Source: Isoetes taiwanensis
Taxonomy: Eukaryota; Streptophyta; Lycopodiopsida; Isoetales; Isoetaceae
Assembly (NCBI GenBank): GCA_021234155.1
Contig: JAJEKV010000091.1
Location: forward strand, 186,001-250,000
Reading direction: 5' to 3'
Length of the DNA stretch: 64,000 bases
Notes under the pieces: generated by a model
The model's input: only the letters and a program-made list of their open reading frames with translations
Databases searched by the model: none
Told to the model about the DNA's origin: nothing
Shown: positions 4,070 through 39,710 of the stretch, in pieces
Numbering within the stretch: the first letter of the stretch is position 1
Layout: every line of letters begins with the position of its first letter
Made by a program: the position numbers and the translations under genes

Positions 4070-4968
4070 CGCCGGTTTAGATACCAAGCTCTTGTTCCCA
4101 AGCTATAGAGCAAAAGCTCTAATAGCCCAGCCTCCAACTCCTTCCCACTCCAAAAGAATTCCAACAACAACTGGAATTGAGCCCCCTACCCATAGGGTTG
4201 AACTCCCCCAAACCCCCCCCATGCCAACCACTAAAGGCGGACATTCTTTGTGATTCCTTTTCAATCTTTGAATCCCTATATACTTCCTGTGCATTTCTAA
4301 TTCACTCCGGAGTGCTCGAAAGTTGTAGGCCTCACAAACGATGGAGGGGAATTTGCATGCGTTGAAGAAGCAGGCACGTAATGGCGAGGGCTCCTCCCCC
4401 TCGGAGTACATCACACAGACGGATGCAATACATGCCCTGGAGGGAAAGCTGAATGCCATACAGGACAAACTGACAGGTGTGGAGATGCAAAGGGACACCC
4501 AATTGGCAACGATTCTCAAGAAACAGTTGGCAAAAGAAAAGGAACGCATTTCGATGTTGGAAGAATGCATTAGGCCACTGGATGACCGCTCTGGGCTGGC
4601 TGACTTCGAGCGCAGACAAGCATGCGATACTGTCGCCCAGCTAAGAAGTGAATTGACAGCGATGTCCTGCACCCTGAGCGATACAACCCAACGTCTAGAT
4701 CAGCTCCAACGGCAAATGTCAGAGGACGTGGTACAACTGCAAAATGAGCTCAGACAGGCAGTGGTGCAGGTTGCACAGTTGGTTGCCCCAAACGGCCGGT
4801 TGGCAGACCAGGAGGCTACAATGGACACCCTAGAAAAGAGACAACCGGAAAGTCACGAGGCAGCGCCCAGGCTTTCGACCCTTGAGAAGAGGATGGCCGA
4901 GTTCCAGCGGGAGATGTATGATCTGCGCATGCATATGAAACAGACAAGTACCACCACAGGGCCAGCAA
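4070..4968 (+). mobile_element. LINE-B, 5' part (split by the giant element)
   Basis: A ~270 bp leader is followed by an ORF1 start at 4341. The reading frame is interrupted at 4968, where a 31 bp inverted repeat begins, and resumes in frame at 39711. The upstream limit of the element is not certain. Confidence 0.75.
4341..4968 (+). pseudogene. LINE-B ORF1, N-terminal coiled-coil half
   Basis: 209 codons are open from ATG 4341 to the insertion point. The frame runs another 5 residues into the inserted DNA before a stop at 4983-4985. The sequence is rich in Glu, Gln, Lys, Leu and Ala with clear heptads (LEGKLNAIQDKLTGVEMQ, LQNELRQAVVQVAQLV), so it is a long coiled coil such as drives ORF1p trimerisation. 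It ends in a Thr/Pro-rich linker (TSTTTGPA). The codon GCA at 4965-4967 and the following A continue exactly with CG TCA CCA at 39711, giving an unbroken link to the RNA-binding half. Before the insertion this was one ORF of roughly 385 codons. Confidence 0.8.
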
Positions 4969-4999
4969 AACCATCATTCAATTAAATTGGGATTATGTC
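4969..4999 (+). repeat. Left terminal inverted repeat of giant element
   Basis: 31 bp beginning AACCATCATT and containing CAATTAAATTGGGATTATG. It is the reverse complement of 39676-39706 with one T/C difference. Similarity stops abruptly on the inner side. GCAA (4965-4968) precedes it. Confidence 0.85.
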
Positions 5000-5249
5000 T
5001 TAATTTTGGGACAAATTTCATATTGCATGTTTTTAGTAGCATATTCAAATTCACATATTTCACCTCAAAATTATGAAAACGTAATATCATGTTATTTACA
5101 AAATAGTCAATATTTCACAATATAGCACCATATCATAAAAACGTGATAACAAAAATTTACATAGTTATTCACAATGATATCATAGCCTTCTTCCTGACAT
5201 CCTGAGGTATTGTAATTCTCGCATTTCTAGCTGGAATAGTGTTTGGAGT
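5000..5249. other. AT-rich subterminal region, no gene
   Basis: The region between the left TIR and the stop of the DUF7869 gene is AT-rich with scattered CATATT and AAAACGTGATAA words. I see no open frame or clear repeat. Confidence 0.5.
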
Positions 5250-8200
5250 CTATGAGTACAAAACACTTTCATAGTCTAGCCAAAGATCAGGATCACTCGG
5301 ATTTCTCCTCCATCTCTTTGTCCAACAATCTGAGTACCTTTCTTTATCCGATACATTGGTCAACTGATGCACTGGACACCACCATTCCACCCGCACATGG
5401 TTGAAGTTAATATTACCTTCTTCTTTGCAAATATCGGAGATAGTGAACCCCAACCACCTTTGGATATGTATCTAAATCTCTTTGGCTTTACTACCACAAA
5501 TTGGTGGCATTCCAAGTCAGTGGAAGGTTCATAAGCATCCATGCCTAGAAACTTTGGCCTATTGTTCTTAGGACCAACATAGTGTTTGTCAAAAGGAGGA
5601 GGAGCATATTGCGTGCGAATGCTACTTACAGTGTCATCAACATCCGCAGCATCTGCTAAGGTCTTCCACCTAGTTTTAGGCAACCACCCTTCTTTCAATT
5701 CATCGAGGATGTGTCTATCTCCCCAACGGGTTAATCACCTTCTTCGGTAAGCCACCAAGGCACGGTTGGTGTCATACGGATTGGTTTGCCAATGCTTTAT
5801 ATAGTCTGGATTCCTTCCTTAGTCAATCCTAATTGCTTCACTTCTTCAAGAGGGTTTTAGAGCTTTTGGTTGACCTGGAGGTATCATAGGCTTGCCATTC
5901 TCATCTCGCCATATTTCCTCCCCTCCTCTCCACTCATCCCTCTGAAGGTCTCATCTTCCATTGGAAGATTGGAATCCCATCTCTCACCCAAAAAGTGAAC
6001 TGGCAGAGGCCTGGAATGACCTTCAAGATCCAATGTATAACCATCCACAAAGCTCTTCCAATCGGGCACTTCTTCTATGAGAGAAGCTATAGGGTTTGGA
6101 GTAGTGCATTCATGCAAGATTTCCATTAGCCTAGGAAAGTTGGTCCTTTGTCTGCTGCTTGATTATACAACTATATTTGTCAAATAATGCATCCACATCC
6201 TCATGGGTATGCCGGGCATAAGAAACCCTAAATTAACTCTTTCAAATATCCCCACAAATTTGTTAAGTAGGATAGGAAAGAAAACATCCACCTGTTCTTA
6301 TTTTGGCTAGCACAATTATCAAGTTGCAAGAGAAACCTTTTGGGTAGATCTTGAGGTCTAGCACGTGAAGTTGAAGCTCCAACATGTTCATTAGACCCAT
6401 GCTTCCTAAACCTTGCCTTGCTGAACTTTTCAATATTGTTAGGGTTTCCATCTAACAATGCTCTATGTAGTGCATGGCTAGCTGTAGGGTCCTGGAGGTG
6501 ACCATTGTATCCAATTTCATAGTTTCTCAAACACCTCATGATACTCCCAATATGAAAATCTGGACCATCACTCCACAATTCCAAACTAAAATGGCCATAG
6601 TAGGTTTGAGTCGCCCATGCAAGATTGCTTGATCATTGAGATCTGTAGGTATGATCTTCCACATGACTTTGGTATGTACTTGAATTGTGGAAGACAAGTC
6701 TTTTGCTGGTCCATCTTGTCATGTATAATGCATAAATAGTTATTGGGTTCCAATGCAGATAAAGTCCTCCACATCCAATAACATGATCTACATGATAGTT
6801 GGTCAGTCATATGGTCCTTCATATGCTCCCTTATCCTAGCCCTTTGACTAGGTTGCACAGTCTTATCAAGAGTCTCCTTCAACTTAGCACATAAATTGCA
6901 CTTTGCAAAGTTGTTTGAAGTTGCTATGGTGACATGATTGAAATGCTTCTTCCATAACCTACTAAAGCTAGGTTGGGATATTGGAAGAATTCCCAATTCT
7001 CGAAGTAGGGAATTCACTTCTTCCAAAAAATACTCTTTTGAGTACAATGTGATGACAACCTTTTCTCAACAATTTGCTCTTCCCTTTTCATCCCTTACGC
7101 TTTTTGTGTGGCATAGACTCTGCATTGAAATCAATATATTTTTCAAATATCTCCCTGGCAGCCAAGGTCCTAGATGTTGGTCTCAACAAACCATTATTTC
7201 CATGTAAAGCAATCATGTTCCCCCCTTTTTATTTTTTTTGCCAATTATGCCATGAAGAAGTTGGAATTGCATGGATAGTCTGCCATGCTTTTGCACATAT
7301 CCATTTGCCTAGCAAAGGGTATCTTTTTCTGTTTGGGTTTCTTTCATCCTGAAGTGCATGCTCGAAGATTGTGTACATGTAGGTCCTCCTCTCATCAACA
7401 GTGTACTCTTGAAAAGTGGCTCTTGCTTCCACCAATTGTTCTATTGTAAAGAATTGCATACAAGCACTCCAACAACAACCGAGCCCCTAACCTTCACCAT
7501 TGTCTCACGTTTGGTGTCACTAATCAACTTGGCTCTTTTGCTAGGATAATGTCTGGCAACTGATACTTCTCCCCTTTTGCCTAGGTTTAGAGTTCCAACT
7601 GCCAATGGATCAATATCAAGACACATTGTCCCCAACAACCTCAGGCTCTGGAAAAATATAATCCTCCACAAATTGAACACTACTTATAGGCCATGCCATG
7701 ATGCAAGGAACCTCCAATTGCTTGACACAACCAAAACATTCCTTGTCACCCAAACCTTTACCTTTCCAGTTGTCTTCCAACATCGAAATTGCAATACCAA
7801 TATTGTCTTCCCCTAGCCTTTCATCATTAACAGCTTGACCAGGATCTGCTAGCACAATGACTCCTTGGCCTACTATTTCCTTGTTGCACTTGTGCATGAT
7901 TCTCACCTTCTTGTTCCTCCATTGCACCCTACTATAGAGGACTTATTATCTTGTCCATCCACTTCTGGCTCACCTGCATCAGCTATAACATTAATGCCGT
8001 CTTCCTCAACTCCATGGGAATTCCCGCCTTCTAAATCCACCTCAAGTAGTCCTCCTTCTTCTCTTTGATCTTCCTGCAACTTGTTTCCCTCCTAAAGCAA
8101 AAAAAAAAAAAGGTTTAATGAAGTGCTAAAATTATATTTAGATGCTATAAAAATCAAAATAGACATTAGAATATGAATTACCTTCATTTGTTTTTTACGC

Positions 8201-8424
8201 TGCTTATTCTTCCTCTCGCCCTCCATTGCCTCAAACTACAAAAAGTCAAAGCAACATTCAATTTTCAGCAATGCAAAAACAAGTGCATCGAATATGATAT
8301 ATAAGAGTAATAGAGGAAAGAACAATACGAATTAATAAATGACTTACATTTCCATGAATTCTTCCTTCGGCAATTAGAGATTCTCGATATATCTTATATG
8401 ATCTCTTTTTCTTTATCGCTGCCA
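5250..8424 (-). pseudogene. DUF7869-type DDE-like transposase gene
   Basis: Reading from ATG at 8424, exon 1 (MAAIKKKRSYKIYRESLIAE) ends at a GTAAGT donor. A lysine-rich exon 2 (FEAMEGERKNKQRKKQMK) and an acidic exon 3 from ~8092 follow, then a long body in shifting frames. Core landmarks: a Cys motif CNLCAKLKETL (~6890), SYLQISMIKQS, LQLDNCASQNKNR (~6310) and RHTHEDVDALFDKY (6173-6217). These are the LDNC..NKN and GHTHED-D signatures of the eukaryotic DUF7869 family. The C-terminal VRVEWWCPVH, SDCWTKRWRRNP and PDLWLDYESV match the usual WW/DCW end. Family function is unproven. The DNC and HTHED-D acidic residues suggest an RNase H-fold nuclease, so I infer transposase ancestry. At least five frameshifts or stops are present. 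It lies next to the left TIR. Confidence 0.75.
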
Positions 8425-8566
8425 TGGTTGTTGCAGAAGGGTAAGCACCCCAGTCCCGGAACTACCCCAATCCCAATCAAGAAATATAGTCAGTTCTCTG
8501 CTGCAAGCATAATAGGCCTTCACCTAATTTTCTGAAATAGCAGACCAGCATAGCCATGGCATGGCC
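8425..8566. other. Divergent intergenic region
   Basis: A short region between the DUF7869 start (-) and the next plus-strand reading frame. It holds CCAGTCCCGGAACTACCCCAA but no TATA box that I can defend. Confidence 0.35.
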
Positions 8567-9074
8567 CGCAACGTCTAAAATCTTTGAAGGAGAATTATTA
8601 TGGTGCAGCAACTACTATGGAAGATATTACCATGATTATGTTTGCTTGGCAAGGCTTGTCCAAGGAATATCAGAACATTTATGATCATTATAAGCTGAAG
8701 ACGACTATCAAAATTACCTTTCTTCAATTGTAGCAACAATTGCTACAAAAAGAAGCATTTCTATCTGGACATCAGAATCAAGTCATAAACATTGCAAATA
8801 TTCTACAGAACTTGATCGTGGAGATAACATTCGTAGATGGTTGGATGAGCTGAACATGGAACTTGCCATTGCTGAATCATTGAGAGAGAACCAGAATCCA
8901 GTTTTGAACATGATCAAAACACCTGTTGGATCTATTATGGATAGTGCCAAGAGACAAACGCTGATCACCAATTTCATGGTCCCAAGGAGGATAAGTGAAT
9001 CTAATGATGATGGTACCAAGGTTGATCTTGGCATGGCCACACTTGGATTTGAGAAACTTCAGGTGATTGATTGA
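8567..9074 (+). pseudogene. Unknown element-borne gene
   Basis: One frame runs from ~8567 to the stop at 9072-9074 with two stops early on. The last 77 codons (from 8841) are fully open. Pieces include YYGRYYHDYVCLARLVQG, RRWLDELNMELAIAESL and SAKRQTLITNFMVPRR. It is moderately acidic, with no signal peptide or membrane segment. I do not recognise the family. The terminal TLITNF-like motif loosely resembles short peptide motifs of replication or repair proteins, which is only a suggestion. It is oriented opposite to DUF7869 and convergent with the next minus-strand exons. Confidence 0.4.
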
Positions 9075-9111
9075 AGTTAAAGATTGAAGAAAGAAAATAC
9101 ATGAGAGAAGC

Positions 9112-9490
9112 TATCTACTACGTACATAATCAGCAGCAATTCCAGCATGTCCCCGTCGTCCTATTCTTACGCCACCTGGTTTTCTTGCTGCCGCTGCTTT
9201 TTTCTGATGGGGGCGGGGTATCTTTTTATTTGCCAGAAACCTCTCCCAAACAGGATCTTTAACATGGTTGGGGGCTATTTTCTTATCACTTCTACGCAAC
9301 CAATCCCTACATAACATGACAACAATAATAAGTAAGGAAGAAATCATAAAATAGGGTATGAAATACATAAGTAGCTTACTTCCAATGATTAAATATGCGA
9401 GCTGCTGTCTTCAATATGTCATAAGCAAAAAGCCCTTTACCAAATTGCTGTTCCAGGGTAAAAGCATGAAAGGGTGTCTATAAATGTAGC
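9112..9490 (-). pseudogene. Unknown two-exon gene fragment
   Basis: On the minus strand an exon reading FHAFTLEQQFGKGLFAYDI and ending IFNHWK is followed by GTAAGC. A 73 bp intron ending TTATGTAG then joins to DWLRRSDKKIAPNHVKDPVW, ANKKIPRPHQKK and a basic tail (GGVRIGRRGHAG) to a stop at ~9112. The splice gives a continuous NHWK-DWLRR reading. The basic tail suggests a nucleic-acid-binding protein. I do not recognise it. The upstream exon beginning is not resolved. Confidence 0.45.
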
Positions 9491-9495
9491 CCTTT

Positions 9496-9522
9496 TTGTA
9501 CATATACATATGTACCGAATGC
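9496..9522. promoter_or_regulatory. TGTACAT palindrome upstream of protease gene
   Basis: GTACATATACATATGTAC is a perfect palindrome at about 200 bp before the start codon at 9711. It contains the same TGTACAT/ATGTAC words that fill introns at 11.3 and 17.3 kb. Confidence 0.45.
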
Positions 9523-9710
9523 ACATTTTTGGAATAACTGTCATCATGACCAGCTAGTAACTGCCATGATTAATGGCTATCCACTACTCTGAACCCGCAA
9601 TTATCGGATTTTGAAATTCTTTCCCAAATTCTTTCTTGGTTTGCCTCTCGTTCACTATCCCGCCCCTGCCTTCTCTGCTTGAATTCCGATCACGAATTCT
9701 TCATCTAGCT

Positions 9711-12700
9711 ATGGCCCCAAAACGCCCCCGGATGAGTGCTTGCTCATCACCCACATTTAAAGCAAGATGCGGTGCTTCCGGTAGTGGAATTTTACCTCCA
9801 AGGAGTTTACGTTTGGGTTACGAGGTGATCAAGCCAAAGACCTCCGTGAGAAACATCGAGAGGCCCACATACCCAACCTAGAGATGGTTATGAGCGAGGT
9901 ATGGGGTGAAGCTCAAAAAAAAAAGACGAGGATTCAAGGAAGGGAGAATCCAGAACGCATGGAAAGATGATTTTTTAAATATTATGAATTGGTTTATGGC
10001 AAGAAACGGGTTACAAACCATTATATTTCAACCTATTTTGCGAGCATTTGCTCTTCACTTGAAGGGCGGCTTGTTGATTGGATGGACGTGGCTAGGACCG
10101 CCAAAGATCTTGCCAAAACCCTCGATTCGGACATTACAGAGGACCCTACAAAAGGTAAATCCTCAACTATCAAACGGGACATCGTATTGCGTGAGAATAT
10201 TAGAGCCACGGGTTATTCTAGATCGGATGTTGACACAATAAAGCAAATTACTTAAGCATGGGTTGGAGGAGAAAACTAACCTATTGAATGAAGTAGAAAA
10301 CCGAAGAAAAAAGGAGGGATGCATTGAAGGTCATCAGTAGGATTGAGGGTAGAAAGGATATGCTATCCAGAAGATGCGGCAGCAGCATCCGCCGGAAAAT
10401 AGATGAGACAAAACAGAATTTGACAAATTGTCCGAGGATCCTGCTTTGGAAATGCTTTGTTATGTTTGAGTGTTGAAGTACAAGTTGGAAGACTTGGTTA
10501 TGAGTAGACATGATAAAGAACAACACTCTTCTAAGCTAGAAATTGGTTTGCAGGAAGCAACTAAAGACATTGAAAGGCATGAAATCTCAATTGAACAAGC
10601 AAAGGAAAAACTTAATTGCATTGAATTGGTTGGGGAAAGGCATTCATGATTTTGGATTTCATGGGGAGAGCAGGACCTATTGTTCGCACCCGAGGCCCTA
10701 CCCTCAGTAGGAGCTACTTCTATAAGCGATTCATCACATTCGGTTCATGTACTTTGTGGCCAAGGCTTTGGCAAAACCGGGTTTGTTGCTGCTAGCTCCA
10801 TGCGAGAGATGCTTATTGCCTCTTTCGCTTGTGTTATCTGGTCCATGAAAGACGTAATTGCATAAAAGGTTGCATCTGGGATGAGGGCATTGAATTCAGC
10901 TTGGTTTCCTCTTTGTGAAAGGTATGCATTGCTCTCAACTAATTTAAACTTATATTTCTCTTCATTCATATTTGTTATTGTAATGCATAGTTCTACATGT
11001 ATGGCTTTCGGTGCATTGCTATTCCTTGTACATGTATAACTTTTAGTGTACATCCGTATGTGAGGTACATAGGCATATATTTGCTTGTTTATTGATGCTT
11101 TTATTTTTGAGCTTGACCGCAGCGGTTGTATCAGGTTGTACATGTCTCTAATGGAGTCTACATCTGCAAATAGATGTACATGCATTTATCTTTAGAGTGC
11201 ATCTGTAGATGGATTCATAAGTATGTGCATTTTTTACATATATGTGCTTTTTTTTTGGCATAGATCTACATTCCCTAACTGGATACCTGGGTACATCTGG
11301 GTACATCAGTGTACATCTGGGTACATTGATGTACCTTTATGTACATTGAGGAACATGTACATGTACATTTGGCTATAGTTAAATGTAGTTACTTACATTT
11401 GGTACATTCTATGTACATGAAATGTACATGCTTGGCAGAATGTACCAGATATTTCTCATTAGTTCTGTTTTCATGTTCTTTTATGTCTATTGAAATTTAG
11501 ATCATTTGTTTGTTTGCAGATGAGGCTGTTCCTATCCCAGAAGCAGCTTTAATGGCTGATGTTCTTGAGCCATCTGCATCGACTCTCTTTACAGATTTTA
11601 CTGAGCATAATAAGCAGACCGAATCTGTAGACCCTCTACCTTCCAGCTCCAGATCACCAATGACATTTACAGTGCCAGTAATAGAACAATCTGCAACAGT
11701 GCCTGCTCGAACATGGCAAAGTGAAGTTGAGGAAATTGAGAGGATGGCACTTGAGAAAGCTAAAGCAGGTGCAGGTGCAGAGCCTTCAATGCTCGCCGCG
11801 AGAAAATCTTTCATCACCAAGTGCTAAATTAGTAATTGGAGAAGCTAAGAAAGATTAAACTTCATCTCGGCATCATCTGCGCAGTCCCATTCTGGACCAT
11901 TGTTGAGGAAAAAGCTACAAAGGACACAGATCCAGATTTTAACCCGGAGATACGGGGAAGAGGAAGCTGAGTTGGTAGTTGAGTCCACTCCAAAGAGGAG
12001 GCAAAAGAATGCTGGTGATGGCACTCCAAAAGGAAAAAAACAGGCAAAATCTCCAGCAACAAAAAAATGTCCTCCGAAAAGAAAATCTCCAGGCAAAAAA
12101 GTGCCACCACCACCTAGAAAGAGGTATGTCCAAGATGAACTAATTTTGTTAAACATCTCAGATTTATGGTAATTAACCACATTTTTTTTGTACATAGGAC
12201 ACGATCACAAGCCGTGAAGGAAGGCGATCCCGATCCTTCTGAGTCGGAACCGGAAGAGGAAGAGGATCTACAAGCAAATATTGATGTGATAACAAATAAG
12301 GTGCAGCAGTCCTCAGAAGATGCTGAAACAGGTGATGAATTTACAAGGTGAGTAATATACAATTGATTACAATAGATATATTCTTTTGCTAATCTTTGTT
12401 GTTTCCTTATGCAGTTTAGTGAACCGATTTGAAAAGGTTGGTTCCATTCACTCCTTATAGGGATTTGTCCTCCTAAGCTGCACCCTCTATCTTTCAAAGT
12501 GATGTTGACGAAGTTCATTGGGAAGCTGGACTTGACCTCTAAGATGGTAGATGTCTATGGGAGGTAGGCTAGCATTTCAACATATTTATGTTATTTCATT
12601 CCCTAAGTCACTCATCTTATGTATTAATATGTAATCTGGATTTGTGTGCAGGTACCTTTGTAGCAGATCTTCCATCGATTGGAAACACAAGTTTTTTACG

Positions 12701-13440
12701 GTTCAATAGGACACCTTCGAGAATTTTGTGAATTCCCTCAAGAACGGGGCGGATGCACGAACACTAACATAAAGGAAGGGCTGGATGGCATTTTGATTGC
12801 AAGATGCCAATACATATTTGTTCCAATTCGCAAGGCCCAAATGTGGCATTGGCAATACTTGTGCTTGCTGGTCAATGAAAAGCTCTTTTCCATCTATAGC
12901 TAGCCCAAGTATCAGATCCTCTCTCTGTCAAAGGCTATGTACCCGATGCTAAAGTGGTCGTAGTAAGTATGAGTTTTGTTTTGTTTTTATGATTTGATTA
13001 TTCTCATATTGCAATTTCTTATGCTTGATTTATTCTCACATTGCAATTTTGCAGGTTTCATAAGCTTGTGATCAATAACATGATGCTCGGATCCAACGGC
13101 TTAAACCATGGTAGGAAGAACTTTGATGCTCTGTGTTCTTTCCTAAAATGCGAGAAACTAGTACCAAAGAACCCTTGCATGTACATTGTGGCTTACATGC
13201 ACAAATTCATAGATGCCGTGGGTTGATGATGCATGACCAAGCTCCATTTTTGTAAGTAGAACATGTTATTTTCCTATTAGTTATTTGTTGGTATAGTCCT
13301 CTAATACTTGTGCACCATGCGAGATGACACCCAGTTGGTTCATCGATGCCTATGCCAAGTCACGGAGGAATCATCTAATGGAGGCATTAATTGTAGAAGG
13401 CGAGATGAATATACAAGCGGTTGTTCCTACATTGGGGTAG
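9711..13440 (+). pseudogene. Ulp1/C48-type cysteine protease gene (multi-exon)
   Basis: The start at ATG 9711 (MAPKRPRMSACSSP) leads into a charged coiled-coil part in broken frames (YGKKRVTNHYISTYFASI, KYKLEDLVMSRHDKEQHSSK). A donor at 10921 opens a ~600 bp intron with TGTACAT arrays, closed by TTTGCAG at 11519. Then follow a Ser/Pro-rich exon, a Lys/Pro-rich basic exon (KRRQKNAGDGTPKGKKQ) and an acidic exon (ESEPEEEEDLQ), each with GT-AG borders. The last exons carry the protease core: YIFVPIRKAQMWHWQYLCLL (catalytic His), LFSIYSSPK where the family has IYDS, and NPCMYIVAYMHKFID, where Cys at 13176-13178 is the expected nucleophile. Ulp1 enzymes cleave SUMO or SUMO-like fusions. Related proteases ride on several plant DNA transposons. 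At least four frameshifts are present. Confidence 0.65.
10921..11519. repeat. Intron with TGTACAT arrays
   Basis: The intron of the protease gene holds over a dozen GTACAT/ATGTAC words between ~11030 and 11445, densest at 11290-11445 (GGGTACATC repeated). TGTACA is self-complementary. Similar clusters occur at 15.17, 17.3 and 18.65 kb. Confidence 0.7.
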
Positions 13441-13700
13441 ATAGTCCCTTTGACTTGTTTGTAAATTACAGTTTTGTATGAGCCATGCTCTCAGAGCTTC
13501 TTTGTACTCAATAAGTAATGAAAAAAATTAATTTATTTGTCTCACTTACACTGTGCAAATAACAATCGTGTAATTATCAATGTGTTTTCTCAATTGTGTG
13601 CGAAATGTAATTATAAATTGTGAATCTCAAGTGTTTTTTCTTGTTGTGGTGAATCATCTAATTGGGGAGAAAGCTCGTTATCTTTGACTTAAATTACGTG
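13441..13700. other. 3' region of protease gene
   Basis: AT-rich sequence with AATAAGTAATGAAAAAA at ~13508 (a possible poly(A) signal region). It contains no open frame. Confidence 0.35.
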
Positions 13701-13739
13701 TTGGGCAAGAGTGTGCACAAGAATGAAAATATTAACTCA

Positions 13740-14922: not shown

Positions 14923-15162
14923 TCATAAGATATCGGGGCTCCTCTTGACATTTTGAAGCTTGGTCATGAATTATGAGCCATGCTCATTTTTGGGTGTGTT
15001 ATATTTATGTCCACAATATAAATATATCAACCATTTGTACATGAAAACCTGTCCATTTCTTATCTTTGCCATGACTGAAACCATTTTAGTGTTTATGCAA
15101 TTCAACTTTCTTGTGTTCAATTCTAATCAACTTACACTTAACAAATTTTTATAATATTTCTG

Positions 15163-15240
15163 GAATGTACAACAGATGTACATAAGATGTACATAAGATG
15201 TACATCTGTTGTACATCTTATGTACATTGATGTACATAAT
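15163..15240. repeat. TGTACAT palindrome cluster between convergent genes
   Basis: Six TGTACAT/ATGTACA words lie in 78 bp. 15167-15183 and 15198-15214 are perfect 17 bp inverted arms around a 14 nt loop, so the segment can form a hairpin. It lies between the ends of two convergent genes. Confidence 0.7.
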
Positions 15241-18624: not shown

Positions 18625-18712
18625 ATAGTATCTTGATGTACATCTAAAATGTACCCCAAAAAAGCACAAATTCGTCCTTCAATTCAGTACGATGTACGTA
18701 CACCCTTTTATG
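18625..18712. repeat. Small TGTACAT cluster, probable intron
   Basis: GATGTACATC, AATGTAC and GATGTACGTACACC lie where the minus-strand reading frame closes (GKSIKG). It reopens after a TTTTGTGTCAG acceptor, so this is probably a further short intron with the motif. Confidence 0.5.
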
Positions 18713-26883: not shown

Positions 26884-27211
26884 CTTTCATGCATTTGATA
26901 AACTTCGGCAAAACTGGTACCTTTCTTCTTTCCATGCTCCTCATAATATTCTTCAAAATTCTTCAAGAAATGGTTAGCATTCATGGAAGAATCATAACAA
27001 GGGGATGGAACAGGTATAGTGAGCTCAAATTGGTAAGGGGCTTGTGGAGGAAAAGGCAAAGCAGAAACATTTGTAATATTTCTTTGTGGAAGGCGGTAGC
27101 CACTTTCATGCTTACCCCTACTAGCTCACGGTTGACCTGCTACCTCGGGTTGCTTTCAGCGAGGCTCAGTGAGTCTTTCTTGGTGCCATGGAGTTCAACT
27201 CCCAGGTGAAA

Positions 27212-27232
27212 ATCTCGGTAGAACCTCCAAAA
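27212..27232 (-). other. Candidate primer-binding site
   Basis: Minus-strand TGGAGGTTCTACCGAGAT starts 2 nt after the 5' LTR. It begins with the TGG complementary to a tRNA CCA end. I could not match the rest to a particular tRNA by eye. Confidence 0.4.
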
Positions 27233-29714: not shown

Positions 29715-29719
29715 CTCTG

Positions 29720-30373
29720 TGCAATAAACCTTCACTGCATGGCCAAGTACTGTCTTCCATGTCTGCCCATTCTCATCTAAGTGTATCTCCCCTCCTTGGA
29801 CCATAGTCACCTAATGTTCCACGAATAGATTATTAACAAAAACACAATAAAATTTAATGTCCAGCAATGCATTCAAACAAACAAATAAGCTCTACCTTAT
29901 CCTTTTTAGGAAGACGAGAAAAAGTAACCTCATAATCTTCGATCAGCTCCTCGTCCTCCTCATCGCTTGCACTATCATCTTCTTCTTCGTCCTCACTAGA
30001 CGATGGCGCATTGATGGATTTTAGACTAGTAGATTTTTCACTGCAGACAATAATGGGACAGCTTAGCAAGTTTGTTTAAAACATGAAGTGGTTCATCAAA
30101 GTACCTTGATCTTCCCTGGTTTTTAGATGAACTTGAGGCTCGCTTTCCATTAGACGTATGCAACGGAGTACCGATCTGCGCAAGCTGCTTGTCAAGCATG
30201 GCCTTAAATTTAAGCAGCTCACTTTGGTCCATTTCTCCAACTAATCTTTCCATGTCCGCGGAACCGTCTTCCTCACTGTCCTCATGACTCCTTCGTGAGG
30301 TTTCCGCCCTCTTCTTTGAACTCTCCTTTGTAGGCACTAAAAAACATAAGCAAATATTGTCAACTAAGAACAA
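29720..30373 (-). pseudogene. 5' exons of the SDGC/HGKG gene (acidic, Ser-rich)
   Basis: Minus strand. After a TGTTTTTTAG acceptor at ~30340 the exon reads PTKESSKKRAETSRRSHEDS, MERLVGEMDQSELLKFK and ASSSSKNQGRSR, then a donor GTACTT. The next exon (after GTCTGCAG, ~30042) reads KSINAPSSSEDEEEDDS and DEEDEELIEDYEVTFSRLPK. The last one (after AACATTAG, ~29815) reads VTMVQGGEIHLDENGQTWKT and ends VYCTE at the gypsy insertion, where the frame continues as IDKDWKK at 18783. The region is highly acidic and probably nuclear. Whether these exons and the DDE-like core form one protein or two adjacent genes is not certain. Confidence 0.5.
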
Positions 30374-31172
30374 AATTCAAAATACAGCAGATATATACCT
30401 CTGAAAGCAGGGCATATAAGCAATATTATCTTAGAATTAAAAATCTCGAATCAAAACCTTGGTAGAAGCTGTGCCCTCCAATCATAAAGAATGTCCTCTA
30501 TCATAAAGCAGCTAGGTAATTCTTTCAAAGTGTGGAAATGGAACTGTTATTAGGTATACAGGAAAAGAGGTCACAAGATAGTATGTACTGAGAGGATCAC
30601 GAAAAAGGGAAGCACAACAACAATCGTCCTCCTTTATTTTAATGCCATTGGATTGTATAGCAAAGGCTGTCTTCCCTGACCAAGTTCTTTACCAGGGCTA
30701 AGAAATCCAAAATTGCCAGCCTCTCTTTTCAAACCTAGCCGGACTTAGACCTTCTCACGTTCTCAAAAGTGCTTAGCCGGACTTAGACCCTCTCACGTTC
30801 TCACCGTTTCAATTTTTAAATAGGTTTAATATAATAATAACAATGGGTGTAAACGAAATCATTTAAAACAAGAATTTTCGTGGCAACAACAAGGAAATGA
30901 CATTTATATAAATATATCCTAATTTTAATTATCGAAAATTTGGATATATGATTACGAAAATAGAATAGAATAGAATAGACATATAGCTGATAGACGTGAG
31001 AATTTATTATCCATAATAATATACCCTAGATGATATAGCTGGCGGGAATTTCGTACGCCTGGCGTGTTATTTGAGGCAATCAATTATTCACGCTAATTTC
31101 TAATTAACCCTATATAAATCCGGTTCACGCTCTCAAGCTCCATTCCTTCCAATTTTTTTTTCTCTGCCCGCC
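30374..31172. promoter_or_regulatory. Divergent promoter region
   Basis: The ~800 bp between the minus-strand SDGC/HGKG gene and the plus-strand acidic-protein gene contains: a 30 bp direct repeat with one mismatch (30736-30765 and 30774-30803, starting TAGCCGGACTTAGACC); an AATAG microsatellite (~30957-30980); the palindrome ACGCCTGGCGT (31055-31065); and a TATA box TATATAAAT (31111-31119) 62 bp before the start codon. Confidence 0.6.
31022..31155 (+). promoter_or_regulatory. Promoter copy 1 with ACGCCTGGCGT palindrome and TATA box
   Basis: It shares GGCGGGAA, CGTACGCCWGGCGTGTTA, GCAATCAATTATTCACGCT, CCTATATAAATCC and TTCACGCTCTCAA with 32160-32275, in the same order and spacing. The palindrome centre lies ~51 bp before the TATA box. 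Confidence 0.7.
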
Positions 31173-31479
31173 ATGAAGCGTTCGGCCTCAGCGCTCGACC
31201 TTCATGAAGAACTCGAGGTCTCTTCAAAGAGACGTCGGGTTGAAGAACCCGCTCAATTCCCCCCCCAATTGATTTTCTTGCCCAATTCTCCTCTGATTCC
31301 TCCTCTGATGAAGAGGAGGAGTTGAGTTCTCAAGAGCACATGACCGCTCTGCTTCAGGGTTGGCTTGACCCTGAAACAGAGAATGAAATCGAGGAGGAGG
31401 AGGAGGAGGAGGAGGAGGGGGGTCGACAATTCGACCAGTTTTTGGAGTGGTTGAGAGATGAACCAGGTTTGCATGTTTG

Positions 31480-31518
<39 letters not shown>

Positions 31519-31578
31519 ACCTTTCTTTCTTTTCTAACACATTTCTTTCTTCTTTGTTGCAGGCGTGGAAAAAGAGTG
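31173..31578 (+). pseudogene. Small acidic protein gene, two exons, one frameshift
   Basis: ATG 31173 (MKRSASALDLHEELEVSSKR) is open to the run of eight C at ~31259. There the frame slips to LAQFSSDSSSDEEEELSSQE, LQGWLDPETENEIEEEE and FDQFLEWLRDEPG. A donor at 31467 and an acceptor TTGTTGCAG ending at 31562 join to GVEKE and a stop at 31578. The product would be ~110 residues, very acidic and Ser/Glu-rich, with a basic N-terminal patch. I do not recognise the family. The intron contains a ~36 nt T run. The single break is in a homopolymer, so it may be a sequencing error and the gene could be intact. Confidence 0.55.
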
Positions 31579-32149
31579 ATGCAGATCCCGGGCGGCCCAT
31601 TTTTTGTTTCCTTTCTTACAGAATTTTTGGACACGCCTCCGGGCATTTTTTTTCTGTAAATTGTGTGAAAAGCCTTCGGGCAGCTGCTTCCAAGCCTTCG
31701 GGCATCTGTACATATAACTGTTTTTAATGAAATCAAACAGTTTTCTTCATAAACTTTGTCTTCAAACAGTTTTCTTCAAACAGTTTTTCTGTACATAAAG
31801 TTTTTTGAATAAAACCAAACTGTATTCTCCAATTATTTTGGCTCCAAGCTGTTTTCTCTAAAATTTTGTCTCTGCAAATTTTGTCTCTCTAAACTTTTGT
31901 CTCGGGAACACTATAAATCAACCACATGAGAATTCTCTGATTCATCACGGTAACCATAGGAAATTTTCCTATATGACCTAAAACAATTCCCCAACCTTAC
32001 AAGTCATTTTTTAGCCTTGATAATTTTGCCTTTAAAAATCATTTTTAATTTAGCCTATATAAAATTTCGAAATTCTATTTTTTCGAATGCAATAAATGGA
32101 ATAAAATGCCGTGAGAATTTATTGCGTAAAATGCAATATTCTCTATATA

Positions 32150-32280
32150 TACCATATACATGTCATGTCTGGCGGGAAGACCGTACGCCAGGCGTGTTAA
32201 TTCAAGCAATCAATTATTCACGCTAATTTATTTCTAATAATGCCTATATAAATCCATTTCACGCTCTCAAAGTTCCTACA
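32150..32280 (+). promoter_or_regulatory. Promoter copy 2 with ACGCCAGGCGT palindrome and TATA box
   Basis: It is a duplicate of the 31.0 kb promoter. The palindrome is at 32185-32195 and TATATAAAT at 32245-32253 (centre-to-TATA ~55 bp), followed by the same TTCACGCTCTCAA leader. Confidence 0.7.
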
Positions 32281-32283
32281 ATT

Positions 32284-32543
32284 TCTTCCTTTCTTCATAC
32301 GATTTGCCGGTTGCGCTTCAGCTGTGTTTGCATCCGCCCTCCTAAAATCTTGGTGAGCAGATTTCTTTTCAGCAATGTTAGATGTTTGGTTTCGGCAATT
32401 CCTAACTTACTAAAAGGCTCCGCCTTTTGTTCTGTAGGATCTGTAGCAGAGGACATCGGAGGCGAATCCAAAAGCCTCGGAATTAAAACCAAAAGCATAG
32501 TCCTCCGTTCTTCGAATCCTTCCAGCCTCAGAACTCAAGGTTA
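32284..32543 (+). other. Possible transcript with short exons after promoter copy 2
   Basis: A first exon ending AAAATCTTG|GTGAGC, an acceptor TTCTGTAG at ~32438 and a ~100 bp exon (GSVAEDIGGESKSLGIKTKS) ending AACTCAAG|GTTAGT look like spliced exons. There is no convincing start codon. It may be a 5' leader of the downstream ParB/HAD gene or a small separate gene. Confidence 0.3.
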
Positions 32544-32839
32544 GTTTTCATTTAGTTTTAAGCTGCATCTCAATGGCAGGTTTAATCCAAGAAGACAAGC
32601 TTTTGCATTTGCTCGAGGCAGAGGAAGCAGATGATGTTTATGAAAACCAGAATAGTTTTTTATAAACTTCATCTGCTTCTTTTTGTTTCGAGTAAATTCT
32701 TGAGTTTCTCTTCCTGAAATAATCATGCTATTGCATGCAAGTTTCTAATATGAATAAGTGTAGTAGAAAGCATTAGAAAAATCTGAAAGATAATATTTGA
32801 AACACGCTAAGCGTGTTTCATGCTAACCTTAGCCTTCAA

Positions 32840-33018
32840 CATGAATGAATCGGCGTGCATTTCGAGAGAGGAGGGAAAAAAAACAATCAGATAGATAAGT
32901 AAATAGATAAAGGCCAGGCAATTATCTACCGAGATAATTGCCTGGCCTTTATCTATTTACTTATCTATCCTCATGTGTTTTTTTTTCTCTCTCTAACGTG
33001 AATGCATGCCGAAAGCAT
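32840..33018. repeat. Foldback hairpin (MITE- or miRNA-precursor-like)
   Basis: Perfect 38 bp inverted arms (32890-32927 and 32932-32969) flank a 4 nt loop ACCG. The pairing extends imperfectly outward through GAAAAAAAAC / GTTTTTTTTC and TCGGCGTGCAT / ATGCATGCCGA for ~80 bp per arm. A stem this long and precise suggests a recent foldback element or a small-RNA precursor. Confidence 0.75.
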
Positions 33019-33246
33019 GTATAGTTTTTCCTATATAGCGGTTTACGGCTGAGTGCAAAAACAATTTTATCCCTAGTTTCAACTTTTAAGCAAAAACGGG
33101 CGTGTCTTTTTAGTTTCTAAGTTTATAAATAAATAAACATAACACGCAAAGCGCGTGAATACCGATACTCGCTCACTTCCTATTGATAGATGCCAAGTTA
33201 CATTAATCACCCGGGTTGGTGACGAAGATGCATTGGAATTACATTT

Positions 33247-33781
33247 GGGCTAGCAAATCACAGCCCAGCTCCAGTTTCGGCTCCAATCTCCGGTCCGGTT
33301 GAATCGCGTGAGAGCACCCATCCGTTTGTTGCACCAGATCTTGCAACCCCCGGAGTACTTGGATCAAGTAATGATGATGGCAGCAGAGCAATGTGGCAAT
33401 GATAGATCTGGGCTCGAGTCCCTTGCAATCGCATGACGGAGGCTGGCCCTCTTATCTAATCACCGAGAATGCAAGTACATGCATTGATCGAGAGTGAATC
33501 TCGTGATCCGTCATTTCGAGATTCAAAATGAGGAGCTGCGTTTCTTAGTGGTTAGCCTCTATGCCCGGATGCCACAACACGAACCACTACCACAGGCGGT
33601 ATACGATGCAATGGAGATGGCTCAACCAATGGAGCAGGAGATGGAGCAGGAGGAGGAGCAGGAGGTGGAGCAGGCGGGGGAGGTGGAGCTAGAGCCTGGT
33701 GTTTTTGCTGGGGTTTTACCAGAAGAATTCACTATGCCCTGCAATGGAAATGGGAGTATCGATAGCCCAGCTACTCAGTAG
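33247..33781 (+). pseudogene. Hypothetical Pro/Ser- and Glu-rich gene
   Basis: The frame at 33247-33400 reads ANHSPAPVSAPISGPVESRE and FVAPDLATPGVLGSSNDD before a stop. A second frame at 33494-33781 is open for 95 codons with a MEQEMEQEEEQEVEQ tract and a short acidic end (VLPEEFTMP). About 70 bp after the stop, TTTTCCAATGAATACAAC could be a poly(A) region. No domain is recognised. The base composition is higher in GC than the surroundings, which fits coding sequence. Confidence 0.35.
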
Positions 33782-33849
33782 ACTGGGCTTGAAACAGTAG
33801 TCTGGGATTTTGTCTGGTTTATCCAGATTATATACAATTGTAAACTTTT

Positions 33850-34640
33850 TCCAATGAATACAACAAATTTTGTCTACTTCTATATTTCTACAATGTAGTA
33901 CATGTTACATACCTTTTTTAAGCGGTTTCTTGGCCATGCAACAAATGTTCCTACACTTTCTCCAACCGTATTCCCACCGGGGTGTCTGCGAGGTAAAGCT
34001 TCATCCATAGCGCAAAGATTAATCATGTGTAACTTCGGACATACTTATCCCCGAGCGGAATTCCATGACAGTTTGCAGTCGGATCGATGGAGTCGATCTT
34101 GCATAATCCTACTTTCCTTTTCTGATTTGTAGTTAAGTACATGAAACATTCATCTTCGACACTGCAGACAATTGCCTATTCAGACACCTTTACTGGAAAT
34201 TATTGTACAAGCTATAGGAATGAGATGCTTACGTAATTTCTCAGAGCCATTCTTGAGAAGCCGATTCGAAGTTTTAGAAATCACAGGCGCTATGGAAACG
34301 CAGGCGGCCGGGACAAATTCGAGTTACAAGAAAGCTTAGGTTAATTACATTTTGGCGGGATAAATGTAATCAATGAAAGAACAAGGTAGATTGGTTTTTA
34401 AAAACTCAATGAAAGAAGCTCTACGGACGGGTTTTTTTTTTAAAGTGAATCTTCGTCATTATTATTTTTATGTGTCAAGAATATTTCGAAACTGCATTTT
34501 GTGTTTTCTTGAAATTCAAATTTCCCTCGTGCAGGTAGAAAACGCTATTTCTCGTACAGGTAGAAAAAGCTATTTCTTCGAAAGCAGCTCGAAGGCCAGA
34601 TCCGAAGCGACCTTCCCGACTGTTACTAGGCGACTCCGGA
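33850..34640. other. Intergenic region, no defended gene
   Basis: Mixed sequence with short chance frames. I see no repeat or motif beyond one isolated TAGTACATGTTACATA. The last 250 bp lead into the start of the ParB/HAD gene. Confidence 0.4.
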
Positions 34641-35127
34641 GATGTCTTCTAAAACGAATCGAGGTCGAGGCGGACGGGGCCGAGGAAGCGATGGAAGAGG
34701 AATCCCAAAACCTCGCACTTCTCAAGTTTCAGAGGACGTTGATCGTAATACCACGAATAATACGTAACCCTACTCAAGGTATTTAATTTGCCACAGAATA
34801 CACACTGTGTGGAGAGTATTATGCTTGCATGAATTTGAGATATTTCCTTGCCTTCACTTAATATGCTTTGCATGAGTTTGAGTTATTATGCTTTGCATGA
34901 ATTTTAAGTATTACCATCAGTTAATGCTCTGATTGTCCGTTTTGTAGAACATAATTTTGCTCTGTTTTATAGAATATAGCAGTGTTAGACAGTTGGAGAT
35001 AGCAATGTTCAATGAGGTTAAATAGTGTGAAATATGGATTCATAAAGGGTATGTAGCTTAAAATGTGGATGCAAACTAATTTAGTTTCAAATTCACGCAT
35101 AGCATGGTCAATAATAGGAGCTACCAA

Positions 35128-35178
35128 CACGCCAAGCGTGATTTGTACTAATTTAGGTTTAAATGCACGCCAAGCGTG
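35128..35178. repeat. CACGCCAAGCGTG pair in intron 1
   Basis: Two copies of CACGCCAAGCGTG (35128-35140 and 35166-35178), 38 bp apart, lie within intron 1 of the ParB/HAD gene, 50-100 bp before the 3' splice site. Confidence 0.75.
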
Positions 35179-36395
35179 ATCTCTTGTTCTGAAAAGTACT
35201 CTAAAAAATGCTCATCTTCTTTTGCAGTGCCCAAGAGGAAGAAAACCCCTAACAATTCGGGTTCTAATCGTGCCAAGAAAGCAAGGGTAGACGACCCAGA
35301 TGCAGTACCATATGATCTCACCTTAGATGATGAAGGGCCGATTCTTATAGCAACCACTGACCCTGCCTGCCCTGAAGAGGAAATGGACGAGGGTGCCGAG
35401 TGGTACGTTGACCTTGCCAAGACAAATGGCAAGCTCGACTTAACTCTCTTCTCGAGGAAAAAGGAAGCAGACAAGATGGCCAAACAAGGGATCCTAATCT
35501 CTTGTGAGGAAGAGGATGACACAAACTGCAAATTGCTCTTGGAGATTACACATAAGCAAAAGAAAGATCTGCTCGGACTTCATCGTAGAGCTATCAGATA
35601 CAAGGATACGCTCATGAAGACAGATGTGAGCGGTGAGACATGTTTTAAATATGGTTGGCCAACCAATGTAGCGATTACGCCAATATCTATTTGCCAAGGG
35701 GTTACAGCTGTGCGTAGAGGCATGTTCACTAAACCGACAGCAAGTCACTATGTGTAGCAAGCTAGGGAATTAGCTGACTTGAAAGCTTCTAGGAGGGTCC
35801 TAGATCTAGGGAAGGATGTTCAACCCTGCGGTTTGTCGAAGGCATGGAGGCTTTTTTTTTGAGAATGAATGAACAGGGGTGGCGGCGCTAGAGGCCATGA
35901 ACATTTCGACCATTATCCATTGGGTCTTAAGGAAACTTTTGCGATCCATGTGAAGTCCCTCATCCGTTCACCAAGCTCCATTTATGTTAGCGTAAGATAT
36001 GATCCAAAGACATGCCATGGAGATTGTTTAGAGCATGATTAGTAATCCAGGTCAAATGCCTATGCCAGCGGATGTGTTACCTTGGGATATGATCTCGAAC
36101 AAGCCTGCTGAGTGGACGAACTTCGAGGACGTAATGTTAAAGGATAACATTAAATTCGTCGTCATCGACGGGCAGCATTCTGTTGAGGCACAGAAGGCCC
36201 TCATCGAACAGTGCGAAACAAACAAGGCCAAAACGCTGTTCTACAATCACTATGCATTATAGGAGGTGTCGTATCTTGGATGCCAATACTTCACCTGCAG
36301 ATTTGGCTGAGATTAGTGCAACTTTGAATGAAATGGGGAAGACATTTCTATACAAAAGGTAACTAACTGTATTAGGATGTTAGCACTTTCATATT

Positions 36396-36642
36396 CACGC
36401 CAGGCGTTCATTCAAATGAAACCAATTCAAGCCAGGCGTGATTTCCTGTAATGAAACCAAATCACGCCAGGCGTGCTTTCAAATCAAACCAATTCAGGCC
36501 AGGCGTGAAATGTTAAAGCACGCCTGGCATGAATTCAACCGATTCGAAAGCACGCCTGGCGTGAATTGCATTGGTATTTAATTCATTTCACGCCAGGCGT
36601 GCTTTGAGGTTGATCTTTTCTATTGAAATTGCACCCGGCGTG
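36396..36642. repeat. CACGCCAGGCGTG array in intron 2
   Basis: Eight palindromic sites lie at ~36396, 36428, 36463, 36495, 36519, 36551, 36589 and 36632, spaced 24-43 bp, with A/T-rich spacers (AATGAAACCAA, AATTCAACC). They fill most of the 327 bp intron. Variants change one or two positions of CACGCCAGGCGTG. Confidence 0.85.
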
Positions 36643-38541
36643 TTTCTTGTCTCTGATACTGATTCAATGCATGTACTTTTGGCAGTCCATACGTGGAGCA
36701 AGCGTACCCGCGCCCACAACGATGGGTGGAATATGGCTGCCCATTACCCACCGCATTGAGGGTCAAAGTCCGAGGCTTTCAAGCTTCTTTGGAGCGGACT
36801 ACATCGCAGAACAACAATTATACAGGAGAAGAAGAAAACTGCAAGAAAATCAAAGAAAAAAGGTGGTGATGACATTGCAGATCCTTCTGAAAGCTCATCT
36901 AGCAGGTCAGGCCCAACAGACTCGTATAAGATTGTGTTCTGTAAGGATGCAGTATGGCAAAAGTGGAATGAATTCTGGGACGCTTATGCACAAAGGAAGC
37001 TGCCAGATACTATGGGTAGTCCTGTTGATGTAAGCATCTTTGACTTGAATGTGACAGAGATGAGAAAGACTCAGGGGCTAGACGACGCTGAGACCATTTG
37101 GGTTTTAGACCAGTGCTTAAAGAAGGAAGTCTTATACAAGAAGAGTGCTTTCACTAAGGATAGGATGTCCTTCGTTGAGTGCTGCAGCCATGTGAAGGAT
37201 GTACATTACAATGAAGTCATTTGTAGGGAGCCGAGTTACAAAGGCTATCGGGGGATGTGGCATTATCCGAAATTGGATTCTTTGGACAAATACAAGGTCA
37301 AGAATGATGACATCAAGAAGTTTGTATTCTGGTCAAAGGACTTCCTAAAGAATTGGAAGGCTCAAAATACAAAACATAAGGAGACTCTACCCCCTAAGGT
37401 ACTGGCCGAGTTGAGAAGAAAAGTGGCCCTTGTGAAGAAGATTACTGGAGAAGACGACGTTGTCCAGTATGCAGTCTCCATTGGGTACAAAGGTCTCTTG
37501 CCAGAATCAACTTCTGGCCTTAAAAATATATCACTCTTTGTGTTGGACAGTAGGGGTGGGAGAGGAGATATGGGCATTAATATATGATGTTAAGGATAAT
37601 GAGCTCCGAACAGAACGGAAGATGGCACATGTGATCTTTATTATGATAGCCATGCTGTCAGACGAGGAATACAAGGGTGATAATAGCAGTGCATGGGAAT
37701 GTTTTCTTCTAGATGATCCAGACTTAAGAACTATATTCTATCATACGAATCAGGATCAGTCAGAACAGGATGAGTCAGAAGAGGATGAGGATCGGGACCC
37801 CCTCCTAAGTGGGGAAATCAAGTACGAGCTACAAACTAAGGAGAAGGGCCCCTTAAATAAAAATGGATTTCCCCCATCTATGGCTGCTTACCTCGTCGAG
37901 GCATTTGCTCCAATTGATACAACCTGCTTGGAGCTTCATGTTGGAGGTTATATTGCCCGAGAGGCTCTTATGGGTGTTAGAAGATGTCACTGCTTTGTGA
38001 GTGATGAGCAGGCCAAAGACTTTCTTGAACCATTCCTCATGCATGTGCTTGCCAAATCTCCTAAAGGCCCTTATGGCAACCTGAAATCATCAGCAATCAA
38101 AAGTCTCGTAGACTTGTCCAATTCGAAAGTGGACGATGGTTCTGGTGAGGGAACTAGTAATCAGCAGCCTGATAAGGAAAGCAATAATGAACAAATAGCT
38201 GCTAAAGTGGCTGCTCAAAGTACTGTGATCGCGGCGAACTTAGGGAATATCTTTGCCTCCCTTCAGGGTGATGCAAGCAACAATAGAGTAGATTCACAGG
38301 TTAACAATGAACTAATTGACAGGGCAACCGGAACTGATGGCAACCAAGACGACTCTAGTGATTCACAGGTTTGCCAAATCAATAGTAAAATAATGTCAGT
38401 TGTGAAGGACGCAGCGGAACTAATAGAAAATAACAATTCTAACAGTCAGAAGAGCACGACGATTAAGGGTGGCGAAGGGGAGAATGACGCCGACGACGGC
38501 AGCGAAACTGAAGATGATAGGTATGGCCTTGCCCACGAAAT

Positions 38542-38675
38542 CGCGCCACGCGTGATTTAATTTGTATTACCTTTGAATTAAATCGCGCCAGGCGTGCTTT
38601 GATTATTTTTCGTTGTCAAACCAAATCACGCCGAGCGCGATTTGGTTACGACTATCTCAAATCACGTTTGGCGCG
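38542..38675. repeat. CACGCC-type palindromes in intron 3
   Basis: Four diverged sites (38542 CGCGCCACGCGTG, 38584 CGCGCCAGGCGTG, 38627 CACGCCGAGCGCG, 38663 CACGTTTGGCGCG) lie within the 211 bp intron. Confidence 0.75.
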
Positions 38676-39368
38676 TTTGTATTGTTTGTGTTATCGTATC
38701 TTGCTGACCAGATACATGTTTGATGTTTCAGCTTGCATTGCGTTTCTAAGAAGGTTGTGGTGTTCGATCTAAACGGAGTCCTTTGCAAGACTTTTTCGAA
38801 AAATAAAGTGGCTAGAGATCAGTTTCATCAAACACCAGTAGAATCAAACACCAAGTGGATCTATCCGCGGCCGCACTTGAAGGAGATGCTAGATGAGGCA
38901 TTCAGGTTATTTCGAGTTGGTATTTGGTCATCCATGGAACTAAGGAATATCAAGGATACTTTGGAGGCACTGGGGGAAATGCGTAGACATTGGTTGACCT
39001 TTTGGGATCAGAACAAATGTGTGAAGTTCACTAATCCCAATGATCCAACAGGCAAGCCTATCTTCATCAAACACTTGAGTAACATGATGGACGAACTTGG
39101 TATCGAGAATAAGGATGATATAATCATAGTGGATGATGATGCTCTCAAATGCTTCTACAATCAAACGCAGGCCCTGAATCCACCATCTTACGATCCAAAA
39201 AACTTTGCGACAGATGATTTTCTGGTGAAATTTGTGTCTATTATGCATAATTTGGCTATGGGGATGACGGTGGGTGAAGTGTTAGATTCATACCCAGAAC
39301 TGAATAGAACGGCTGACATGGAACCACACCTTGTTAAATACGTGGAAAAACATGGATTGATCCCTTAA

Positions 39369-39675
39369 TGTTTTATTGGAATATATGATATCTTTGTATG
39401 ATATTTGTGCCATGTATCGATAATTTCGAGTCTGGAATTGCCTCGCAAATAATGCAATTCGTTATTATCAAACCTAATATTATCATCTAAATGCTCTTCA
39501 ATTTTGGTCTCATCTATGTTAGCAACTTGCTCTTCATTTTTGCATATTTCAATTCGCATATGAAACGTCACACGTGAATCGCAGCCTTGTGTTATTTTTG
39601 AAGTAAAAAAAAAAAAGATTAAAAAAAACAAAAACCCCCTAGAAGACAACAGCAGGTTGGCGTGATTTTGGAGTT
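39369..39675. other. Region between HAD exon and right TIR
   Basis: AT-rich 3' flank with an A-rich stretch (39604-39640) and a half site GGCGTGATTTTG just inside the right TIR. It has no open frame. Confidence 0.45.
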
Positions 39676-39706
39676 GACATAATCCCAATTTAATTGGATG
39701 ATGGTT
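39676..39706 (-). repeat. Right terminal inverted repeat of giant element
   Basis: 31 bp beginning GACATAATCCC and ending ATGATGGTT. It is the inverted partner of 4969-4999. It is followed directly by GCAA (39707-39710), matching the 4 bp before the left repeat. Confidence 0.85.
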
Positions 39707-39710
39707 GCAA

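Follow-up and report, generated by a model that had tools for sequence, protein, structure and literature searches.

We analyzed a 64,000-nucleotide stretch of the genome of the lycophyte Isoetes taiwanensis (assembly GCA_021234155.1, contig JAJEKV010000091.1, positions 186,001 to 250,000 of the forward strand; hereafter the window), in which a DNA transposon bounded by terminal inverted repeats (TIRs), here called family A, lies within open reading frame 1 (ORF1) of a long interspersed nuclear element (LINE). A first-pass annotation had taken everything between the two TIRs for a single giant transposon of 34.7 kb and of an unrecognised type. The borders of the element, in window positions, are as follows:

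4965..4968, unstranded: left target site duplication (TSD), GCAA
4969..4999, plus strand: left TIR, AACCATCATTCAATTAAATTGGGATTATGTC
39676..39706, minus strand: right TIR
39707..39710, unstranded: right TSD, GCAA

The left and right 31-bp TIRs are identical at 30 of 31 positions and carry GCAA on both outer sides, exact to the base as first described. The termini of family A read AAC..GTT (ends AACC). The next-best 31-mer of the window differs from the left TIR by 10 mismatches, and no other lies within 9. Frame arithmetic by hand confirmed the earlier observation that the two halves of LINE ORF1 rejoin in frame once 4969-39710 is left out; the rejoined ORF1 runs into an in-frame stop at about 39830, and the interrupted LINE copy is therefore defective.

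Genome searches were made in the 1.658-Gb assembly (1110 contigs), and copies are labelled by contig or stretch (C80, C85, C45, L068 and so on). The left and the right LINE flank each gave 39 matches outside the window (40 scored of 225 candidates and 40 scored of 547, respectively). Among these scored matches, 19 of the 39 left-flank matches directly adjoined a right-flank match and represent uninterrupted LINE junctions elsewhere; 13 of the 19 were exact, with an overlap of precisely the 3 TSD bases common to both queries. The 31-bp sequence is thus no normal part of the LINE. Separately, in one LINE copy (C1096:1478605-1491290) about 11.4 kb separate the left flank (to query 593) from the right flank, suggesting another, different insertion near this site.

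The TIR pattern, allowing up to 3 mismatches, matched the genome 1846 times in forward and 1878 times in reverse orientation, while the reversed pattern, used as a control, matched nowhere in either orientation. From the first 100 listed TIR places we picked ten complete copies for their spacing of ~12.3 kb; further TIR pairs among those places, for example one on C30 at 12.1 kb, lie outside this sample. The ten copies measured 12,282-12,477 bp, and all had perfect 4-bp TSDs (ATGA, GATT, TGAG, AGTT, CAAA, TATA, CCTC, AACT, CATT and GATT). With the window included, a perfect 4-bp TSD was present in 12 of the 12 copies examined, 11 of them outside the window, and comprised 11 different sequences. 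Because uninterrupted copies of the LINE and many further copies of the TIR exist, it is well supported that a real TIR transposon inserted into LINE ORF1 with a 4-bp TSD, as the first-pass annotation had held.

Two divergent subfamilies of A, represented by C80 and C85, share the same 12.3-kb layout. One larger TIR pair, C45, spans 23.5 kb with the TSD TTCT; it aligns with C85 piecewise along its length, the exception being a single 11-kb block, near whose ends lie direct repeats of 0.4 kb (88%). C45 is a 12-kb element enlarged by an 11-kb insertion different from those in the window, where the interval between the TIRs is divided as follows:

4969..7947, minus strand: left part of host transposon A; aligns with C80 1-2848 at 92.5-95.1% in two pieces, 6550-6658 unmatched
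7948..9455, unstranded: sequence without match in the compared A copies, likely the left part of a nested repeat, C
9456..18721, unstranded: nested TIR transposon B, 9,266 bp; 23-bp TIR GGGTAAAAGCATGAAAGGGTGTC, 21/23 match; TSD TCCA
18722..18788, unstranded: 67-bp spacer between B and the following element; starts with TSD TCCA, ends with TSD CTCTG
18789..29714, minus strand: nested long terminal repeat (LTR) retrotransposon, 10,926 bp; TG..CA ends; TSD CTCTG
29715..30818, unstranded: right part of nested repeat C, with genome matches
30818..39706, plus strand: right part of host transposon A; three pieces match C80 3074-12332 at 85-96%

Alignment of the window element with the complete copy C80 (12,332 bp) was confined to 4969-7947 and 30818-39706, each of these parts including short stretches that did not align. 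The core of A in the window thus amounts to 2,979 + 8,889 bp, with 22.9 kb of later nesting in between. Since the ten complete copies are 12,282-12,477 bp long and the window core agrees with them, the working unit of family A is about 12 kb, and giant size is not a property of the family. No DNA match to C80, C85, C67 or C170 was found across 7948-30817, and interior ORFs of at least 40 amino acids (aa; those of the LTR element left out) had no tblastn match in 11 copies, save at the extreme left edge. Nor did any of the 11 other copies compared share this long interior, as copies of a single-unit transposon of over 30 kb would. The complete gene set that had been ascribed to one unit mixes genes of A with nested sequence.

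The nested elements have borders of their own. Of 489 genome candidates for a 1-kb piece of B, 40 were scored, 39 of them other matches at 90-94%, and the copy of B on C1097 is flanked by the TSD TTAT. In seven B copies elsewhere, the sequence upstream of B is not that of A, and B begins at the same base in all four cases in which the border was read. The near-identical LTRs (about 18789-21255 and 27233-29714, 96.2% identity), TG..CA ends and 5-bp TSD identify 18789-29714 as an LTR retrotransposon; its minus strand gave RVT_3/RNase H matches, along with an aspartyl-protease match below the cut-off, and by eye it is putatively of Gypsy type. Repeat C is less sharply delimited: 7948-9455 is probably its left part, while three matches elsewhere to its right part stop at 30819, and two further ones return to A sequence at 30818. 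B and the LTR element, 67 bp apart, apparently both lie inside C. Open frames in the left part of C (8694-9071 and 9114-9410) had no Pfam match over the cut-off, and one of them resembles a retrotransposon remnant by eye. At least two later insertions, and probably three, have enlarged the window copy.

The genes that belong to A itself lie in its two outer parts:

5240..7942, minus strand: decayed transposase-like gene of A (DUF7869), in several frame-shifted pieces in the window
35152..36259, plus strand: conserved coding pieces of A, from tblastn conservation in other copies
36760..38557, plus strand: accessory protein of A, conserved in other copies
38724..39365, plus strand: NIF-type haloacid dehalogenase (HAD) phosphatase-like gene of A; 214-aa open frame; Pfam NIF, expectation value (E) 1.8e-15

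By tblastn from the window, the transposase-like gene is conserved in other A copies. DUF7869, a Pfam domain without assigned function, matched a piece of C80 with E 3e-23 and an 807-aa frame of L068 with E 2.3e-36. Among 10,230 genome candidates for a 256-aa piece of the protein, 148 relatives were scored, their open frames reaching 807 aa. Three aspartate motifs, IIHDKMD, LQLDN and HEDVDA, are conserved among the aligned rows. Counting the rows of the alignment that have a letter at the position, D284 and D287 were present in 14/15 (the exception is a C-terminal piece from the window that is misplaced in the alignment), D419 in 14/14, and D459 and D461 in 12/12. The gene is under selection, with omega of 0.14-0.32 in nine pairs that are not independent and 0.22-0.47 in three pairs that include broken pieces. 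We consider the DUF7869 protein a candidate catalytic transposase with a putative RNase H fold. Because this gene is broken in the window, the window copy looks dead.

Genome-wide, the DUF7869 profile (PF25273) returned 9903 first-look candidates; the 150 that were scored all lay over the Pfam cut-off at 167-187 bits, with frames up to 987 aa, and the profile was found in 0/14 control genomes. The first-pass annotation had listed two DDE-like proteins and a Ulp1 protease. Pfam turned up one transposase-like gene only, the DUF7869 gene, in the scanned pieces, and no Ulp1: none appeared in scans with stops read as X of 9456-18721 and 7948-9455 (both strands) and of 29715-30817 (minus strand), nor among the single window ORFs scanned, by which alone the LTR element and the rest of A were covered. 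Sequence searches of the PDB with four proteins gave nothing credible, an NCBIfam scan of six proteins gave nothing over the cut-off, and one scan of viral contigs for relatives of the transposase gave 7 pattern matches, none of which was confirmed.

At the other end of A, the HAD half of what had been called a ParB/HAD gene is borne out by the NIF match; the ParB half comes down to a motif seen by eye (VIDGQHSVEA, at 36032-36259), with no Pfam match over the cut-off. In two other copies, 640 and 638 aa of the accessory protein could be read up to the end of the retrieved sequence (70% identical), and its open frames in the genome reach 717 and 722 aa (149 scored of 3828 candidates). It has no Pfam or PDB match, and a motif that by pattern resembles methyltransferase motif I drew no support from Pfam. 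With omega of 0.29 between C139 and C170, this gene is under selection as well. For the phosphatase-like gene, 150 of 6460 candidates were scored, many of the listed rows having stop-free 232-aa frames; the window and C139 proteins are 55% identical, with nonsynonymous divergence (dN) of 0.34 and saturated synonymous divergence (dS).

The transposase-like and phosphatase-like genes occur as pairs at opposite ends of the element. In a sample of 40 of the first 41 transposase rows, 8/40 had a phosphatase row within 30 kb among the first 52 phosphatase rows; adding ten lower phosphatase rows picked by eye brought the paired rows to 12/40, and all 12 pairs read outward. A phosphatase-like gene also occurs in transposon B, whose TIRs differ from those of A and which also makes a 4-bp TSD. 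The B copy on C1097 contains a NIF/HAD phosphatase-like segment (L043:5232-5447, E 2.8e-7) that weakly resembles its counterpart in A (tblastn E 6.5e-6). In the window, B had no Pfam match at E 0.05 in any frame of either strand.

We consider it highly probable that the locus holds a ~12-kb cut-and-paste TIR transposon of the DDD/E type, family A, which entered LINE ORF1 and was enlarged by later insertions of C, B and the LTR retrotransposon. Its working unit consists of a TIR, an outward-reading DUF7869 gene near one end, one or more outward-reading accessory genes including the NIF/HAD gene near the other, and the second TIR. In the mechanism we propose, the DUF7869 protein would bind the 31-bp TIRs, excise the element and insert it at cuts staggered by 4 nucleotides, and host repair of the gaps would yield the 4-bp duplication. 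A would have entered LINE ORF1 in this way, duplicating GCAA, and the later C, B and LTR retrotransposon insertions would have pushed its ends to 34.7 kb apart. The element presumably moves by cut-and-paste and not by copy-and-paste; any contribution of the phosphatase to transposition is putative.

Several observations weigh against this explanation. Its TSD statistics rest on 12 copies. The step involving C was not a clean insertion, since a TSD for C, sought at the C-A junctions, is nowhere clear and since C80 holds about 225 bp at this junction that have no counterpart in the window; C80 may not mirror the state before C inserted. The RNase H fold is not supported by an AlphaFold model of the 807-aa protein (20 related rows), whose mean predicted local distance difference test (pLDDT) score was 38.5; this model and a second one, with a mean pLDDT of 30.5, were both unusable. 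Finally, all 150 scored DUF7869 matches (167-187 bits) outscore the A protein (about 126 bits). A is therefore one branch of a much larger set, and a protein of another DUF7869 branch could act on its ends.

The extra 225 bp or so of C80 also speak for the view that a single giant transposon spans all 34.7 kb and that the 12-kb copies are internal deletion derivatives of it, as do the correct TIRs and TSDs at both ends of the 34.7-kb unit. However, parts of the interior carry TIRs or LTRs and TSDs of their own (TCCA, CTCTG), B occurs elsewhere without A upstream and from a constant start base, C45 was enlarged by a different insertion, and one 12.3-kb layout is common to subfamilies as divergent as those of C80 and C85, so that we give this view almost no credence. 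It is likewise extremely improbable that a mis-assembly joined unrelated repeats: the assembly is repeat-dense, but random misjoins would produce neither three junction pairs (GCAA, TCCA and CTCTG) that match to the base nor a restored LINE frame. On the nested explanation, which we retain, what had looked like a giant transposon becomes a well-supported case of nesting.

These results link DUF7869, a domain of unknown function, to a TIR family whose ends, TSD length and empty sites are known and whose ends have thousands of matches in the genome. Annotators of seed-free plant genomes gain a handle by which to name family A, and the transposase role of DUF7869 becomes testable. We regard the family as worth naming, as that of a DUF7869 transposon whose conserved accessory gene is phosphatase-like. 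The occurrence of a phosphatase-like gene in B, an otherwise different transposon, raises the question of its use to a transposon. In the neighborhood of the element, positions 941-3275, immediately upstream, hold a same-strand LINE that has endonuclease and reverse transcriptase domains, and long open frames of up to 394 aa lie to the right of the element (42486-49553).

Among known systems, the best reading of these features is a cut-and-paste DDD/E transposon resembling Sola, a superfamily reportedly founded by Bao et al. in 2009, with Sola1 in Physcomitrella. Sola elements are described as having a DDD-transposase, 4-bp TSDs, a size of mostly 2-9 kb with some over 15 kb, and TIRs of 11-1124 bp (PMC10741241); they are recorded in Physcomitrella (PMC10741241, PMC9033089), and a Sola2 element is given with a 4-bp TSD and an 888-aa transposase (PMC3627910). 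Family A likewise is a large element of a seed-free plant, with 4-bp TSDs, TIRs (31 bp) and a size (12.28-12.48 kb) within these descriptions. On the DDD side it offers three conserved aspartate motifs in a candidate transposase whose catalysis and fold are putative, the AlphaFold model having a mean pLDDT of 38.5. The claim of an unrecognised type is weakened to this extent, while DUF7869 itself, as a Pfam domain of unknown function, fits that claim. That A is a member of Sola and nothing more, a comparison made by description only, has in our estimate slightly less than an even chance: TSD, TIR, size and motifs fit, but other groups (Ginger, Kolobok, piggyBac, some IS481EU and some PHIS) also make 4-bp TSDs, and DUF7869 is named in no paper found within the open-access literature subset searched. 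Sola elements are not known to us to carry a NIF/HAD phosphatase-like gene, and a literature search for Sola with ParB, phosphatase and haloacid dehalogenase found no paper on such a gene, judged by title.

Alternatively, DUF7869 transposons may form a separate, so far unnamed superfamily that makes 4-bp TSDs and habitually carries a phosphatase-like gene as an accessory. This is possible but unlikely; the 9903 candidates of a domain without assigned function, its absence from the control genomes and the conservation and pairing of the accessory genes with the transposase-like gene speak for it, but absence of a name from a subset of open-access papers is weak evidence, and Sola already accommodates a 4-bp TSD and a DDD-like pattern. 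A bolder form of this proposal, which we find doubtful, is that DUF7869 marks an unnamed superfamily of large TIR transposons of plants that make 4-bp TSDs and have expanded to thousands of copies in a lycophyte. In its autonomous members, a second, conserved and outward-reading module (a protein of at least 640 aa with no known relatives, plus the NIF/HAD protein) would act in transposition, perhaps by processing DNA ends or by controlling host RNA polymerase II.

Ginger, piggyBac, Kolobok and IS481EU are rejected for family A on their ends or TSDs. Ginger1 and Ginger2 share the 4-bp TSD and TIRs; Ginger1 is described as having a CCGG/CCGT target, TGTNR ends and a Gypsy-like integrase, some elements carrying Ulp1 (PMC2836005), while A ends in AACC, has mixed TSDs and showed no integrase in Pfam scans of its pieces. 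Kolobok and piggyBac are described as making TTAA-specific 4-bp TSDs, 4-bp TSDs being also given for some IS481EU and some PHIS, and none of the 12 TSDs of A is TTAA. The termini of IS481EU are given as TNT..AYA (PMC10045372). Those of A are AAC..GTT, which sets it apart from this group.

Larger elements invite a different comparison. Polinton/Maverick elements have genes for a protein-primed polymerase B, a retroviral-type integrase, a packaging ATPase and capsid proteins, and a 6-bp TSD. Like them, A is a TIR element of more than 10 kb with several genes. No gene for polymerase B, integrase, packaging ATPase or capsid was found in the window ORFs scanned or in the three plus-strand frames of the half copy L026, so that, as far as was scanned, the earlier statement that A is no Polinton stands; with a TSD of 4 bp and no such genes in the scanned pieces, Polinton/Maverick is unlikely. 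The Starships are giant cargo transposons. Teratorn, at 180 kb, is another (PMC5601938). The window copy resembles both in its very distant ends; in family A, however, the distance is due to nesting around a unit of about 12 kb.

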